From Dehalococcoidia bacterium (GTDB taxonomy: Bacteria > Chloroflexota > Dehalococcoidia > UBA2979), in contig SHYR01000007.1 in NCBI GenBank assembly GCA_009692705.1, positions 1 to 44,229 on the forward strand: a stretch of 44,229 bases of DNA, given 5' to 3'. The notes beneath the pieces are model-generated. The model did not search any database, was not told the DNA's origin, and saw nothing but the letters and a program-made list of their open reading frames with translations. Both the position numbers and the translations under genes were made by a program. Positions 23,464-39,933 of this stretch are shown piece by piece (position 1 is the first letter of the stretch; every line of letters starts with the position of its first letter).

Positions 23464-24786
<1,323 letters not shown>

Positions 24787-24855: not shown

Positions 24856-25473
24856 TCACGACTTCTTTTCGATCACGCGGCGGGCCAGGATGGCGTCGAC
24901 CAGCCCGTAGTCCAGCGCCTGCGCCGCGCTCATGTAGAAGTCGCGGTCCATGTCCGCATTGACCTTTTCGGCTGGCTGGCCGGTGTTCTGGATCAGGATG
25001 TTCCGGATGATGTCGTTCTCGCGCAGGATCTCCCGCGCTGCGATCTCGATGTCGCGCGCCTGCCCCCCGACCCGGCTCAACATCGCCTGGTGGAAGTGGA
25101 CGGTGGCGTTCGGAAGCGCGTAGCGCTTCCCCTTCTGCCCGGCCGAAAGCAGCACCGTCCCCATCGAAGCGGTGATCCCGACGGCGATCGTGGAGATATC
25201 CGGCTGCACCAGGTGCATCGTGTCGTAGATCGCCAGTCCGGCGGAGATCGAACCGCCCGGCGAGTTGATGTACAGCTGGATGTCGCGGTCCGGATCCTCG
25301 CGCGCCAGGAAGAGCAGTTGCGCGACGATCGAGTTCGCCACCTGGTCGTCGATCGGCGTACCGAGGAAGACGATGCGCTCTTTCAGCAGCAGCGAGTAGA
25401 TGTCGTAGGCACGCTCGCCGCGCGCGGTCTGCTCGACCACCATCGGGACGATGGCCTGTGGCGAAATAATCAC
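24856..25473 (-). CDS. clpP: ATP-dependent Clp protease proteolytic subunit
   Basis: [78 protein letters not shown]. Confidence 0.98.
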
Positions 25474-35362: not shown

Positions 35363-35367
35363 CAGCC

Positions 35368-35685
35368 CCCTACCGAGCCAGCCCCACCGCCTCGCGCACG
35401 GCGTCCAGCAGCGAGGTGATACGGCCAGGCCACGGCGGCGCGCGCGCCCCTACCGCACCAGCCACACCGCCTCGCGCACGGCGTCCAGCAGCGAGGTGAT
35501 ACGGCCGGGCCACGGCGGCGCGCGCGCCCCTACCGCACCAGCCTCACCGCCTCGCGCACGGCGTCCAGCAGCGCGACGGTACGGTCGGGGTCCGGCGGCT
35601 CGCGCCCCCTATCGCACCAGCCCCACCGCCTCGCGCACGGCGTCCAGCAGCGCGCTGACGTCCGGCCCCGGCGGCGGGTGCAGCG
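35368..35685. repeat. ~80-bp tandem array (4 copies) derived from the 3' end of the deacetylase gene
   Basis: Copies start at 35368, 35448, 35528 and 35607, each ccctaYcg..ccag.c.caccgcctcgcgcacggcgtccagcagcg. Copies 1 and 2 differ at ~4 of 80 positions. Copy 4 is the coding 3' end. Confidence 0.93.
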
Positions 35686-36636
35686 GCTCCGGGTCCGGCG
35701 CCGGCTCGTCGCCCAGCAGCAGCTCGCAAAGCGCGCTCGCGCACCACGCCAGCGCGTGCGCGTCGTAGCCACCTTCGAGCGCCACCACCACCCGCCCCGC
35801 GCACAGCGCGCCCGCGGCGTCGAACACCAGGCGCGCCGCGCGCGTGTAGCCGTCGGTGGTGACCGCCAGCGGCGCCAGCGGGTCGCGCGCGTGCGCGTCC
35901 CAGCCGCACGACACCAGCACGAGTTGCGGGCGGAAGCGCTCCAGCGACGGCACCACCACGCGCTCGAAGGCGGCGAGCAGAGCGTCGTCGCCCGCGCCGT
36001 GCAGCAGCGGCACGTTCACCTTCGTGCCCTCGGCGGCGCCCTGCCCGCGCTCGCGGTAGTGGCCCGTGCCGGGGTAGAACGGCGCGGCGTGGGTGCTGAC
36101 GTAGAGCAGCCGTGGGTCGGCGTCGAAGATCGCCTGCGTGCCGTTGCCGTGGTGCACGTCCCAGTCCACCACCGCCAGCCGCTCGACGCCTGCCGCGAAC
36201 GCCGAGGCGGCCGCGATCGCGACGTTGTTCAGCAGGCAAAAGCCCATCATCTCGTCGCGCGTGGCGTGGTGGCCCGGCGGGCGCACCGCCGCGAAGGCCG
36301 TGCGCGCCTCGCCGCCCAGCACGGCGTCGAGCGCCGCCAGCACCGCCCCCGCCGCGCGCCGGGCGGCCGCGGGCGAGCCCGGCGTGACGTACGTGTCGGC
36401 ATCGACGTGGCCGCCGCCGCGCGCCGCCAGCGCCGCCTGCGCATCCAGTAGCGTGCGGTCGTGGACGCGCAACAGCTCGGCGTCGGTGGCCTCGCGCGCG
36501 GGCAGCGCGAGCATGCGCGGTCGCAGCCCGCGCGTCTCGAGCTGCCGCAGCACCGCCGCCACGCGCTGCGGGCGCTCCGGGTGCCCCGCCTCGGCGTGCT
36601 CCTCGGCGGATTCGGTCGCTAGCGCGAGGGGGTGCA
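35609..36636 (-). CDS. Histone deacetylase/acetoin utilization (AcuC-like) family protein
   Basis: HPERPQRVAAVLRQLE, AVRPPGHHATRDEMMGFCLLNNVAIAA, VVDWDVHHGNGTQAIF, VLVSCGWDAHARDPLAPLAVT. Start MHPLALATE preceded by a ggag SD. Confidence 0.94.
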
Positions 36637-36809
36637 TGGGAGGCTCCGACTGCCAAGATGGTAACACCGCCGCCTGAGCGTTCGCATGGAAACATGAGAG
36701 CGTACCGACGGAAATTGTCGCACACAGACTGCGCTCGAATGCGTGAGGCCACCGCTAGAAGCCATGGTACGGTGGCTACATGATGCACGTAGTTCAGGCG
36801 CCCGCTCTG

Positions 36810-36832
36810 CTTGCCAGGAATACTTGCCAGGA
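36810..36832. repeat. 10-bp direct repeat cttgccagga x2 (13-bp period), possible operator
   Basis: cttgccaggaatacttgccagga just upstream of the SD/ATG at 36846. Confidence 0.5.
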
Positions 36833-36845
36833 CTAGGAGCCGCCC

Positions 36846-37264
36846 ATGAACAAGCGCGATTGACTATTGAGCTTCTTTGACCAAGATCTCGACCCACTTA
36901 GGATTCAGAAATGGATGTTCCTCTTCGCCAAGGAATATGGCGCTTTCGAGGCCGTGTGTATGAATTAATGACATACAACTGGGGCCCATACAGCTTCGAA
37001 ATATATGACGACCTCGAGCTACTACACGGCAACGGACTGGTCGAACGCGTACCTGTCCCAGTCAAGTCGTGGTCGAAGTACCGAAGAACTGCTGCCGGTG
37101 ACGAGAGAGTGCGGATCCTGAATAGTCGCGCATACAACAAGGTCGCCAAATACCTGAACATCGTAAAGGATGCGGTAACTAAAGAGCAGACTTTTAACAG
37201 TCTGCTGCGTAAGATTTACAGAGCCTATCCAGAATGCGCTACCAAGAGCCTCTTTCGCTGGTAA
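36846..37264 (+). pseudogene. Broken 'RxQK..FLFAKE...YGPYSFEIYDDLE.L...GLV' (winged-helix-like) gene
   Basis: SD aggag; MNKRD[TGA 36861]LLSFFDQDLDPLRIQKWMFLFAKEYGAFEA in frame 0, then frame 2 YELMTYNWGPYSFEIYDDLELLHGNGLVERVPVPVKSWSKYRRTAAGDERV... to stop 37264. Confidence 0.65.
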
Positions 37265-37275
37265 CAGCACCTGAG

Positions 37276-37993
37276 ATGCCCACATCCGGGACCGTCATCG
37301 TCGCGCTCATGTACAACGATGGTGTCTTAATCGGTTCGGACAGTCAGGCGACAGACACCACAACTGAGGTCAGGTGGCTGGTCCGCAAGATCGAACAGGT
37401 CAAGAATCACCCAGTCGTAATCGGCTATAGCGGTTCAGTTGGATCCGCACAACGCACGACCGACCGACTCGCTCAACTCAATCTTACAAAGAATATGTTC
37501 GACAAGAGTGACAGCTTTCTGGCTGCTCTGGATAAGGCGTTCGCAGAGGAATACACCTCCATACGCAGCCGGTCACACCCTCCCGTGATGTTCCTACCAA
37601 ATATCACCACTGGGCGCTCGGCGCGCTTTGGACCGAGGGGCGGCGTGCATTCTTGAGTACGAAATAAACGACGAAAGCAGTTGGCACGAGTACTTCCATA
37701 CTATCGGCAGCGGAAGCCGCACAGCCTACGCGGTGTACAGAACTCTCGGTGGACAGAAGCTGAGAACGCTGGCGGAGCAGACTACCGTAGCCGCAATTCT
37801 CCGGATCATTCTAACAGTTATAAGCGTCGATGTAATGGGCATTGGTGAGTCAATTCTACTCTGGCGCATTAGCGCATCCGGGTGCCACGGTTTTGGCGTC
37901 GACGAAATAAATGCACATTCCCAGTTCGTCGACAGCTGGCTTGACACGGAACAGGATGCACTCCTCGCCCTGGACAGATCCACCCGGCGGTAA
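37276..37993 (+). pseudogene. Stand-alone proteasome-beta-like Ntn hydrolase, frameshifted
   Basis: MPTSG|TVIVALMYNDGVLIGSDSQATDTTTEVRWLVRK: T1, D17 and K33 at canonical spacing; GYSGSVGSAQ. Continues in another frame as CILEYEINDESSWHEYFHTIGSGSRTAYAVYRTLGG...GIGESILLW to 37993. Confidence 0.72.
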
Positions 37994-38010
37994 ACCACAC
38001 TACCTTCCCC

Positions 38011-38016
38011 TACACT
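38011..38016 (+). promoter_or_regulatory. -10-like TACACT, 6 nt before the selB ATG
   Basis: ttccccTACACTctccccATG; no SD present. Confidence 0.55.
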
Positions 38017-38022
38017 CTCCCC

Positions 38023-39933
38023 ATGTACGTCATCGGCACCGCCGGGCACGTCGACCACGGCAAGTCGCGCCTCGTCGAGGCGCTGACCGGCACCAACCCC
38101 GACCGCCTCGCCGAGGAGCAGGCGCGCGGCCTCACCATCGAGCTGGGCTTCGCCTGGCTCACCCTCCCCTCCGGCCGCGAGGTGTCGATGGTGGATGTGC
38201 CCGGCCACGTCCGCTTCGTGCGCCACATGCTCGCCGGCGCGGGCGCGATCGACCTCGCGCTGTTCGTGGTCGCCGCCGACGAGGGGGTGATGCCGCAGAC
38301 CCGCGAGCACCTCGCCATCCTCGACCTGCTCGGCGTCGCGCACGCCGTGGTCGCGCTCACCAAGTGCGACCTCGTCGACGACGCGGAGTGGCTGGAGCTG
38401 GTCGAGGAGGAGCTGCGCGATCTGCTCGCCCCCACCACGCTCGCCGGCGCACCCGTGGTGCGCGTCTCCGCCATCACCGGGCAGGGCCTCGACGCCCTGC
38501 GCGCCGCGCTCGACGCCGCGCTGGACCGCGTGCCGCCCCCGCGCGACCGCGGCCGCCCGCGGCTCGGCATCGACCGCGTGTTCACGATGGCGGGCTTCGG
38601 CACCGTGGTCACCGGCACGCTGCTCGACGGCCGCCTGCGCGTCGGCGACAGCGTGGAGGCGGTACCGGGCGGCCCCACGGCGCGCATCCGCGGGCTGCAG
38701 ACGCACCGCAGCGAGCGCGAGCAGGCGGAACCGGGCACGCGCGTGGCGGTCAACCTCGCCGGCGTCGCCGTCGAGCAGCTGCGGCGCGGCCAGGTACTCG
38801 CGCCCCCCGGGCGGCTCGCGCCGGTGCGCTCGCTCGACGCCCGCGTGCGCGTGCTCGATGGGCGCGCGCTGCGCCACAACCTGCGCGTGACGCTGCACAC
38901 CGGCGCGGACGAGGCGGAGGCGCGCGTGCGCGTGCTCGGCCGCGCCCCCGCCGCCGAGGACGGGACGGACGGCGGGCCGCTCGGCGCGCTCGCCGCCGGC
39001 GCGGAGGGCTGGTGCCAGCTCGTGCTGCGCGAGCCGGCGGCGGTGCTGCCCGGCGACCGCTTCGTGCTGCGCGTCTCCGACGAGACGGTGGCCGGCGGCA
39101 CCGTCGTCGACGTGAACCCGCCGCGCCACCGCCGCAGCGACCCAGCGACGCTCGAGCGGCTGCGCTCGCTGGCCGCCGGCACGCCGGAGGCGCGCGCGCT
39201 GGCGGCGTTGCAGCGCGTCGAGCCGTGCGACTCCGCGGCGGTGGCCGCCGCCGCGGAGCTCGACGCCGAGGCGGCCGCGCAGGCGCTGGTGGCGCTCGTG
39301 GCGCAGGGCGCGGCGCGCGGGCTCCCCACCCCCGGCGGCGAACCCGCGAGCACGATCTACGCCAGCGTCGAGGGGCTGCGGCGGCTCTCCGCCCAGCTGA
39401 CGCGCGCGCTGGAGGACCACGAGCGCGAGCATCCGCTGCGCCACGCCATGCGCCGCGAGGAGCTACGCTCGCGCCTCGGTCTGCCGCAGCGCGAGTTCGC
39501 GGCGCTGCTCGATGCCATGGGCGCGGCGCTAGCGCTGCGCGGCGAGGGCGGCCAGGGCGTGGCGCGCGCGGGCTGGATGCCGCAGCTGACGGCGGCGCAG
39601 CGCCGGGCCGCCGAGGAGACGGTGGCGACGCTGGAGCAGGCCGGCATCGCGCCGCCGCGGCTGGAGCTGGACCCGGAGCTGGTCGCCTACCTCGACGGCG
39701 CCGGGCTGGTGATCGACTGCGGCGACGGCGTGGTGCTCGGCGCGCGGGCGTTCGAACAGGCGCGGCGACGCGTCGAGGCGACGCTGCAGGGCGGCGACGG
39801 CACGCTGGCGGAGCTGCGCGACGCCCTCGGCACCAACCGCCGCGCGGCGCAGGCGCTGCTCGAGACGCTGGACCGGCGCGGGGTCACGCGCCGGGAGGGC
39901 GACGCCCGCGTGCTGGCCGGCCGTACCGCGTGA
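38023..39933 (+). CDS. selB: Selenocysteine-specific translation elongation factor SelB
   Basis: YVIGTAGHVDHGKSRLVEALTGTNPDRLAEEQARGLTIELGFAWL, VPGHVRFVRHMLAGAGAIDLALFVVAADEGVMPQTREHL, C-terminal winged-helix region. Confidence 0.95.
   Translation: MYVIGTAGHVDHGKSRLVEALTGTNPDRLAEEQARGLTIELGFAWLTLPSGREVSMVDVPGHVRFVRHMLAGAGAIDLALFVVAADEGVMPQTREHLAILDLLGVAHAVVALTKCDLVDDAEWLELVEEELRDLLAPTTLAGAPVVRVSAITGQGLDALRAALDAALDRVPPPRDRGRPRLGIDRVFTMAGFGTVVTGTLLDGRLRVGDSVEAVPGGPTARIRGLQTHRSEREQAEPGTRVAVNLAGVAVEQLRRGQVLAPPGRLAPVRSLDARVRVLDGRALRHNLRVTLHTGADEAEARVRVLGRAPAAEDGTDGGPLGALAAGAEGWCQLVLREPAAVLPGDRFVLRVSDETVAGGTVVDVNPPRHRRSDPATLERLRSLAAGTPEARALAALQRVEPCDSAAVAAAAELDAEAAAQALVALVAQGAARGLPTPGGEPASTIYASVEGLRRLSAQLTRALEDHEREHPLRHAMRREELRSRLGLPQREFAALLDAMGAALALRGEGGQGVARAGWMPQLTAAQRRAAEETVATLEQAGIAPPRLELDPELVAYLDGAGLVIDCGDGVVLGARAFEQARRRVEATLQGGDGTLAELRDALGTNRRAAQALLETLDRRGVTRREGDARVLAGRTA

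Follow-up and report, generated by a model that had tools for sequence, protein, structure and literature searches.

A mobile gene pair joining a proteasome-like Ntn hydrolase to an antitoxin-like winged-helix partner

A degraded gene pair between an HDAC-like gene and selB

The window analyzed here is a whole stretch of 44,229 nucleotides from a Dehalococcoidia bacterium (contig SHYR01000007.1). At positions 36846-37993, it contains two adjacent plus-strand genes, both of which are frame-broken. The first (36846-37264, plus strand; main open piece 36911-37264) is a degraded gene for a winged-helix protein that resembles the DarG C-terminal domain (CTD) and Panacea; we refer to it as the partner. 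The second (37276-37993, plus strand) is a degraded gene for a proteasome-beta-like Ntn hydrolase. It survives as two open pieces: 37234-37656, which contains the true start at 37276, and 37628-37993. Both genes lie within an inserted island (36668-38022) that is flanked by an HDAC-like gene on the minus strand (35609-36667) and by selB on the plus strand (38023-39933).

At the island, GC content falls from about 0.75 to about 0.52; the AT-rich stretch with the two genes is at 53%, and the rest of the window at 71%. The gene order HemW-HDAC-selB is common to the window and to another genome of the same family (G006; locus L144). The gap between the HDAC-like gene and selB is 1355 bp in the window, in contrast to only 200 bp in that genome, which carries its own intact pair elsewhere (L002 and L073). 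In five other relatives, HemW is directly before selB, and no HDAC gene was detected there. The window pair is an insertion between the HDAC-like gene and selB. No TSD, terminal inverted repeats, or integrase was found in the island, and no tRNA was found at the insertion site. Separately, an 80-bp repeat occurs four times in tandem (73-95% identity) at positions 35367-35685 of the window. The array overlaps the 3' end of the HDAC-like gene, so several reading frames end in LLDAVREAVxLxR.

The partner gene is interrupted by an in-frame stop at codon 6 and shifts frame once, near 36960; its N-terminal piece, from 36846, is out of frame with the main piece. The hydrolase gene has two frame changes, located between about 37585 and 37646. 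A sequence-only reading of this DNA had called the pair degraded, which agrees with the stop in the partner gene and the frame changes in both genes; the window copy is dead. It is extremely improbable that assembly errors account for the frame breaks and chance for the pairing. The host genome assembly is fragmented and 77% complete, so sequencing errors are possible. However, the four lesions occur only within 1.15 kb, none are found in the flanking genes, which read through, and chance pairing is already refuted by the linkage at 30 of 30 loci described below.

The hydrolase and its winged-helix partner

From its start at 37276, the hydrolase reading frame is MPTSG followed by TVIVALMYNDGVLIGSDSQATDTTTEVRWLVRK. 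Thr1, Asp17, Lys33, and Gly47 are all present. The predicted nucleophile, Thr1 (codon 37291-37293, plus strand), comes directly after the propeptide MPTSG, and the codons for Asp17 (37339-37341, plus strand) and Lys33 (37387-37389, plus strand) give exactly the spacing that the sequence-only reading had described. Thr1 and Asp17 are invariant across the family (27 of the 27 members with a readable N-terminus), Lys33 is kept in 28 of 29 members, and the oxyanion glycine in 29 of 29. The five-residue propeptide, also proposed earlier, is found in the window frame but does not hold for most family members, where Thr directly follows the start Met, with no leader. Leaders of four to five residues occur only in the window subgroup (MSESA before the Thr in L041; MSQST in L009).

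The window hydrolase fragment matches the Pfam family Proteasome (PF00227) above its cut-off (E 6.4e-8; 32.9 bits; cut-off, 22.4). The two halves of the window hydrolase are 39% and 45% identical to the intact L009 hydrolase (E 6e-25 and 2e-34), a likeness beyond chance. The structural model of the L041 hydrolase (pLDDT 88) has a four-layer alpha-beta-beta-alpha fold with a long helix at the end, and Foldseek matches it to 20S alpha and beta subunits (prob 1.0; TMq up to 0.76; E about 1e-12). By score, residues, and the fold of its L041 relative, the second gene encodes a proteasome-like Ntn hydrolase (PF00227 superfamily).

The window fragment falls far under the HslV equivalog cut-offs (28.9 and 25.5 bits, versus 137 and 157.75) and under that of the 20S beta subunit (22.6 bits, versus 191.9). 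The sequence-only reading had envisaged a distinct proteasome-like subfamily, a part of it that is supported. That reading had also reported no HslU or proteasome alpha subunit near the pair; no alpha subunit lies nearby, and no HslU was seen in the window or in the relative loci examined. ClpXP is where it had been placed (ClpX, 23464-24786; ClpP, 24856-25473). In the host's own genome (77%-complete assembly), no other Ntn or HslV match was found. The family resembles HslV in its catalytic N-terminus and in its hits to PHROG 1040 (“peptidase HslV family”; 17 of 21) but differs in lacking HslU, in its equivalog scores, and in being about 60-100 residues longer. At one locus, a second, different proteasome-like reading frame (L065:8315-9136, MTVVVAWTRKL...LLIATDSRLSGG) adjoins an Ntn pair on the opposite strand. 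At two others (L036:8400-8620 and L072:1340-1560), the hydrolase is frame-broken at its N-terminus beside an intact partner, through either decay or metagenome error.

The partner is roughly 140 amino acids long in Ntn-linked relatives. The window partner is 40% identical to the intact L009 partner (E 1e-22), and the upstream open reading frame (36911-37264), which carries the motif quoted in the sequence-only reading, matches the PADLOC family PDC-M19A (3e-7). A winged-helix partner had been suggested, and the L041 partner model (pLDDT 94) indeed has the winged-helix fold, with additional helices at the C-terminus. Among PDB structures, it best matches the DarG CTD as found in the DarTG complex (7yk3; prob 1.00; TMq 0.62; E 8e-3), with the winged helices of MarR, PadR, and RosR ranking closely behind (Foldseek).

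Profile matches of the partners to known antitoxins are sub-threshold. NCBIfam DarG matches 4 of 20 partners and SocA 2 of 20, while Pfam SocA_Panacea (PF13274) is found weakly in 7 of 20 (best E 5.4e-5, below the curated cut-off) and not at all in the window and L041 partners. Aligned with Panacea loci (hhalign), the partner family matches with a probability of 70%, and its invariant Gly-Pro may correspond to the Panacea GPV motif. We therefore call the partner “DarG-CTD/Panacea-like”, not a family member, as these matches are sub-threshold, and the likeness could be a generic winged-helix resemblance. A partner-related domain also shows similarity to the C-terminal part of certain type I specificity subunits. 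The partner C-terminus has a conserved NS[VI]F, for which a docking-tail role was considered and dropped: NS is also present in DUF488 fusions, so NS[VI]F is probably just the domain end.

Several more distant proteins resemble the partner. The closest viral folds are BFVD A8TKI0 (Sulfolobus spindle-shaped virus 4) and A0A2H4RBN9 (E 3e-5 and 8e-5), both of which are uncharacterized archaeal virus proteins. Three loci on Chloroflexota chromosomes (L085, L086, and L087) encode partner-family proteins with C-terminal extensions and no adjoining Ntn gene. On a Haloarcula sinaiiensis plasmid (L121; pHsi540 172228-180602), genes for two unnamed proteins and a SIR2 protein come after a distant homologue annotated as a SocA-domain antitoxin, in what may be an archaeal defense operon.

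Linkage, distribution, and mobility of the pair

Whole-genome searches covered relatives, the class, and the phylum, together with an Ntn-based scan of 84,980 species. IMG/VR was scanned by partner, which gave pairs in phage contigs, and an Ntn-based scan recovered most of these. We find intact relatives in Chloroflexota, Acidobacteriota (Terriglobia), Omnitrophota, Woesebacteria, three Methylobacterium, another alphaproteobacterium, and phage contigs. The distribution is patchy, with the pair present in about 1-3% of the Chloroflexota genomes searched. The closest relatives of the window pair are L009 and the viral contig L041.

The partner is directly upstream of the hydrolase, on the same strand, at 30 of 30 loci (counting each distinct Ntn gene with a score of 40 bits or more, window copy included). 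The gap between the two genes is commonly -4 to +12 bp; values of -4, +3, +6, and +8 are typical, and a 4-bp overlap is frequent. All 11 loci recovered in the Ntn-only scan of the 84,980 species are also linked to a partner, which indicates that the linkage was not produced by partner-based searching. None of the HslV genes from the same searches have a partner; these include nine loci first considered as candidates and set aside as ordinary HslV (L003-L005, L018-L020, and L022-L024). A distant Ntn without a partner (L021) scored 28.7 bits and is outside the family. The sequence-only reading had taken the two genes for a cassette, a small mobile or defense/regulatory module, and they are conserved as a unit; both a match to the Ntn fold and co-occurrence with the upstream gene were clearly found.

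Ntn-linked and DUF488-linked partners separate in the partner tree with support of 100/99, and the window partner groups with those of L041 and L009 (99/85). Pairwise distances among partners and among hydrolases are correlated (Mantel 0.77; 0 of 2000 permutations), a correlation that shared ancestry alone would also give.

The 200-bp gap in G006 and the AT-richness of the copies support a mobile pair. In 14 of 17 loci, window included, the AT content of the pair exceeds that of the flanking DNA, although only marginally in L071. Phage portal, terminase, and capsid genes lie near the pair in L009, L030, and L059; type I and IIG/II restriction-modification (R-M) systems in L035, L067, and L070; and AbiEi/AbiEii in L066. 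Integrases and tRNAs are also among the neighbors. The R-M, AbiE, and phage neighbors, along with the antitoxin-like partner fold, suggest a putative defense role, although some loci sit among housekeeping rather than defense genes. Among named plasmids and phages, neither the window hydrolase nor that of Methylobacterium had a match. The partner had none among named phages, and its only relatives on plasmids are haloarchaeal, some of them annotated SocA/DUF4065.

Two alternative functions were weighed. The hydrolase might be an autoregulated housekeeping or stress protease that acts on damaged proteins in the manner of Anbu or BPH, with the partner as the operon's transcription factor, in keeping with a partner fold also close to PadR, MarR, and RosR. 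We consider this improbable given the sparse and patchy spread, the phage-borne copies and AT-rich islands, and the obligatory linkage with no free-standing Ntn. Less probable still is a protein ligase or maturation enzyme similar to monomeric connectase, for which the partner would select a phage or host protein to modify. Proteasome homologues do include the ligase connectase (PMC8665760), and the L059 and L030 copies sit inside phage morphogenesis clusters. However, contexts vary widely, and no recognizable substrate gene is conserved nearby.

Candidate functions of the pair

The pair has the layout of a type II toxin-antitoxin (TA) system: a conserved two-gene operon, small gene first, coupled, and mobile. 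Antitoxin-first is given as the usual TA order in the Panacea survey (Kurata 2022, PMC8832971). Our best reading is of a mobile toxin-antitoxin-like (or adaptor-protease) module with a proteasome-like threonine hydrolase as effector. More specifically, we favor, at a little under even probability, a TA or guard module in which the proteasome-type hydrolase is the effector and the winged helix its direct inhibitor.

For such a module, we infer binding, inhibition, toxicity, trigger, and substrate as follows. The product of the first gene would be a small winged-helix protein similar to the DarG (CTD) and SocA/Panacea antitoxin domains, and that of the second, translationally coupled gene a proteasome-beta-like threonine hydrolase for which a long propeptide would not be needed. 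Made together, the two proteins would bind, and the partner would keep the hydrolase inactive. Loss or diversion of the partner, as might happen when a phage infects the cell, would free the hydrolase to cleave a host or phage protein. We count in favor of a TA module the linkage, the antitoxin-first order, the folds of both proteins, the partner tree and the correlated distances of the two genes, the phage, R-M, AbiE, and tRNA context, the AT-richness of the pair, and the solitary partners carried by phages. The frame breaks confined to the hydrolase in L036 and L072 were also counted, although these may be metagenome errors.

The main rival, which we judge unlikely but well ahead of the alternatives above, is an adaptor-protease pair. 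Here, the partner would be a substrate adaptor or activator, standing in for the AAA+ unfoldase with which HslV or the 20S proteasome works, and the substrates would be specific proteins, either phage-derived or DNA-associated. There is precedent in SocA, a Panacea protein described in the same survey as a proteolytic adaptor that delivers SocB to ClpXP (PMC8832971). Furthermore, no AAA+ partner is linked to the hydrolase, the two genes are strictly coupled, and recognition of DNA or proteins would be within the scope of a winged helix. The related domain in DUF488 fusions and at type I specificity subunit C-termini also points to an interaction module. On the other hand, other Panacea antitoxins neutralize through direct binding, independently of ClpXP or Lon (PMC8832971), and an inhibitor is the simpler explanation for phages with only the partner.

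Panacea (PanAT/SocAB) shares with it the two genes, the antitoxin-first order, mobility, and a distantly related antitoxin-like domain. However, the partner is under the Panacea cut-off, and the portion of the survey cited mentions proteases only among rare third-gene accessories and names none among the main toxin domains of PanT (PMC8832971). In structure, the partner comes closest to the DarG CTD, the DarT-blocking domain, which is reported to act via ssDNA mimicry (as cited in PMC11481870); unlike DarTG, the pair has neither a macrodomain nor DarT, and it encodes an Ntn hydrolase in second place.

In prokaryotes, 22 new homologues of the proteasome were described by Fuchs, Alva and Lupas (2021), who saw neither a genomic context nor a co-occurrence that pointed to their function (PMC8665760). 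The family described here shares with them Thr1/Asp17/Lys33/Gly47, the lack of an AAA+ neighbor, a C-terminal helix, and a sparse distribution in bacteria and phages, and it could itself be a member of one of their 22 subfamilies. In contrast to the lack of telling context reported there, it is obligately paired with an antitoxin-like gene, and this pairing of a proteasome-like enzyme is the new element. Where the 2021 homologues offered few functional clues, the strict context of this family makes its function directly testable, and an intact pair exists in culturable Methylobacterium (L068, Methylobacterium tarhaniae DSM 25844). No paper joining proteasome homologues with phage defense or antitoxins was found.

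The partner domain occurs without the hydrolase in at least four phage lineages (L028, L032-L034, L039, and L154). One copy (L028:3389-4219) lies between terminase and portal genes and is fused to another C-terminal domain. Another (L034:7983-8429) belongs to a single phage represented by L032, L033, and L034, with portal and terminase genes. Two tandem copies (L039:8001-9220) have SbcC-like, polynucleotide kinase, and ribonucleotide reductase neighbors, and the fourth (L154:2140-2589) is amid apparent head genes. No Ntn remnant was found in L028, L032-L034, or L039, and no Ntn among the intact reading frames of L154. These solitary partners are possible antitoxin mimics, comparable with ICP1 Gp145, which acts against DarT (PMC11481870), but they could equally be transcription factors or adaptors.

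We know of no proteasome-like toxin. It is possible, although somewhat less likely than a TA or guard module as such, that this is the first TA or abortive-infection family with a proteasome-type threonine protease as toxin and a DarG/Panacea-like winged helix as antitoxin, against which phages deploy the solitary antitoxin domain as counter-defense. If so, proteasome-type proteases would form a toxin class alongside nucleases and transferases, with a bearing on proteasome regulation without AAA+ partners.

A further relative of the partner is found in PDC-M19, a candidate defense system in PADLOC. The N-terminal domain of PDC-M19A is related to the partner but is separated from Ntn-linked partners in the tree by a strongly supported branch. 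PDC-M19A is fused to DUF488, and M19B comes next in L043, whereas the window pair has neither. On that viral contig (L043:7998-9661), and similarly on L044-L046, L048, L049, and L051, a winged helix fused to a DUF488-like domain corresponds to PDC-M19A; in L043, the fusion is followed by PDC-M19B, with phage packaging-like genes near.
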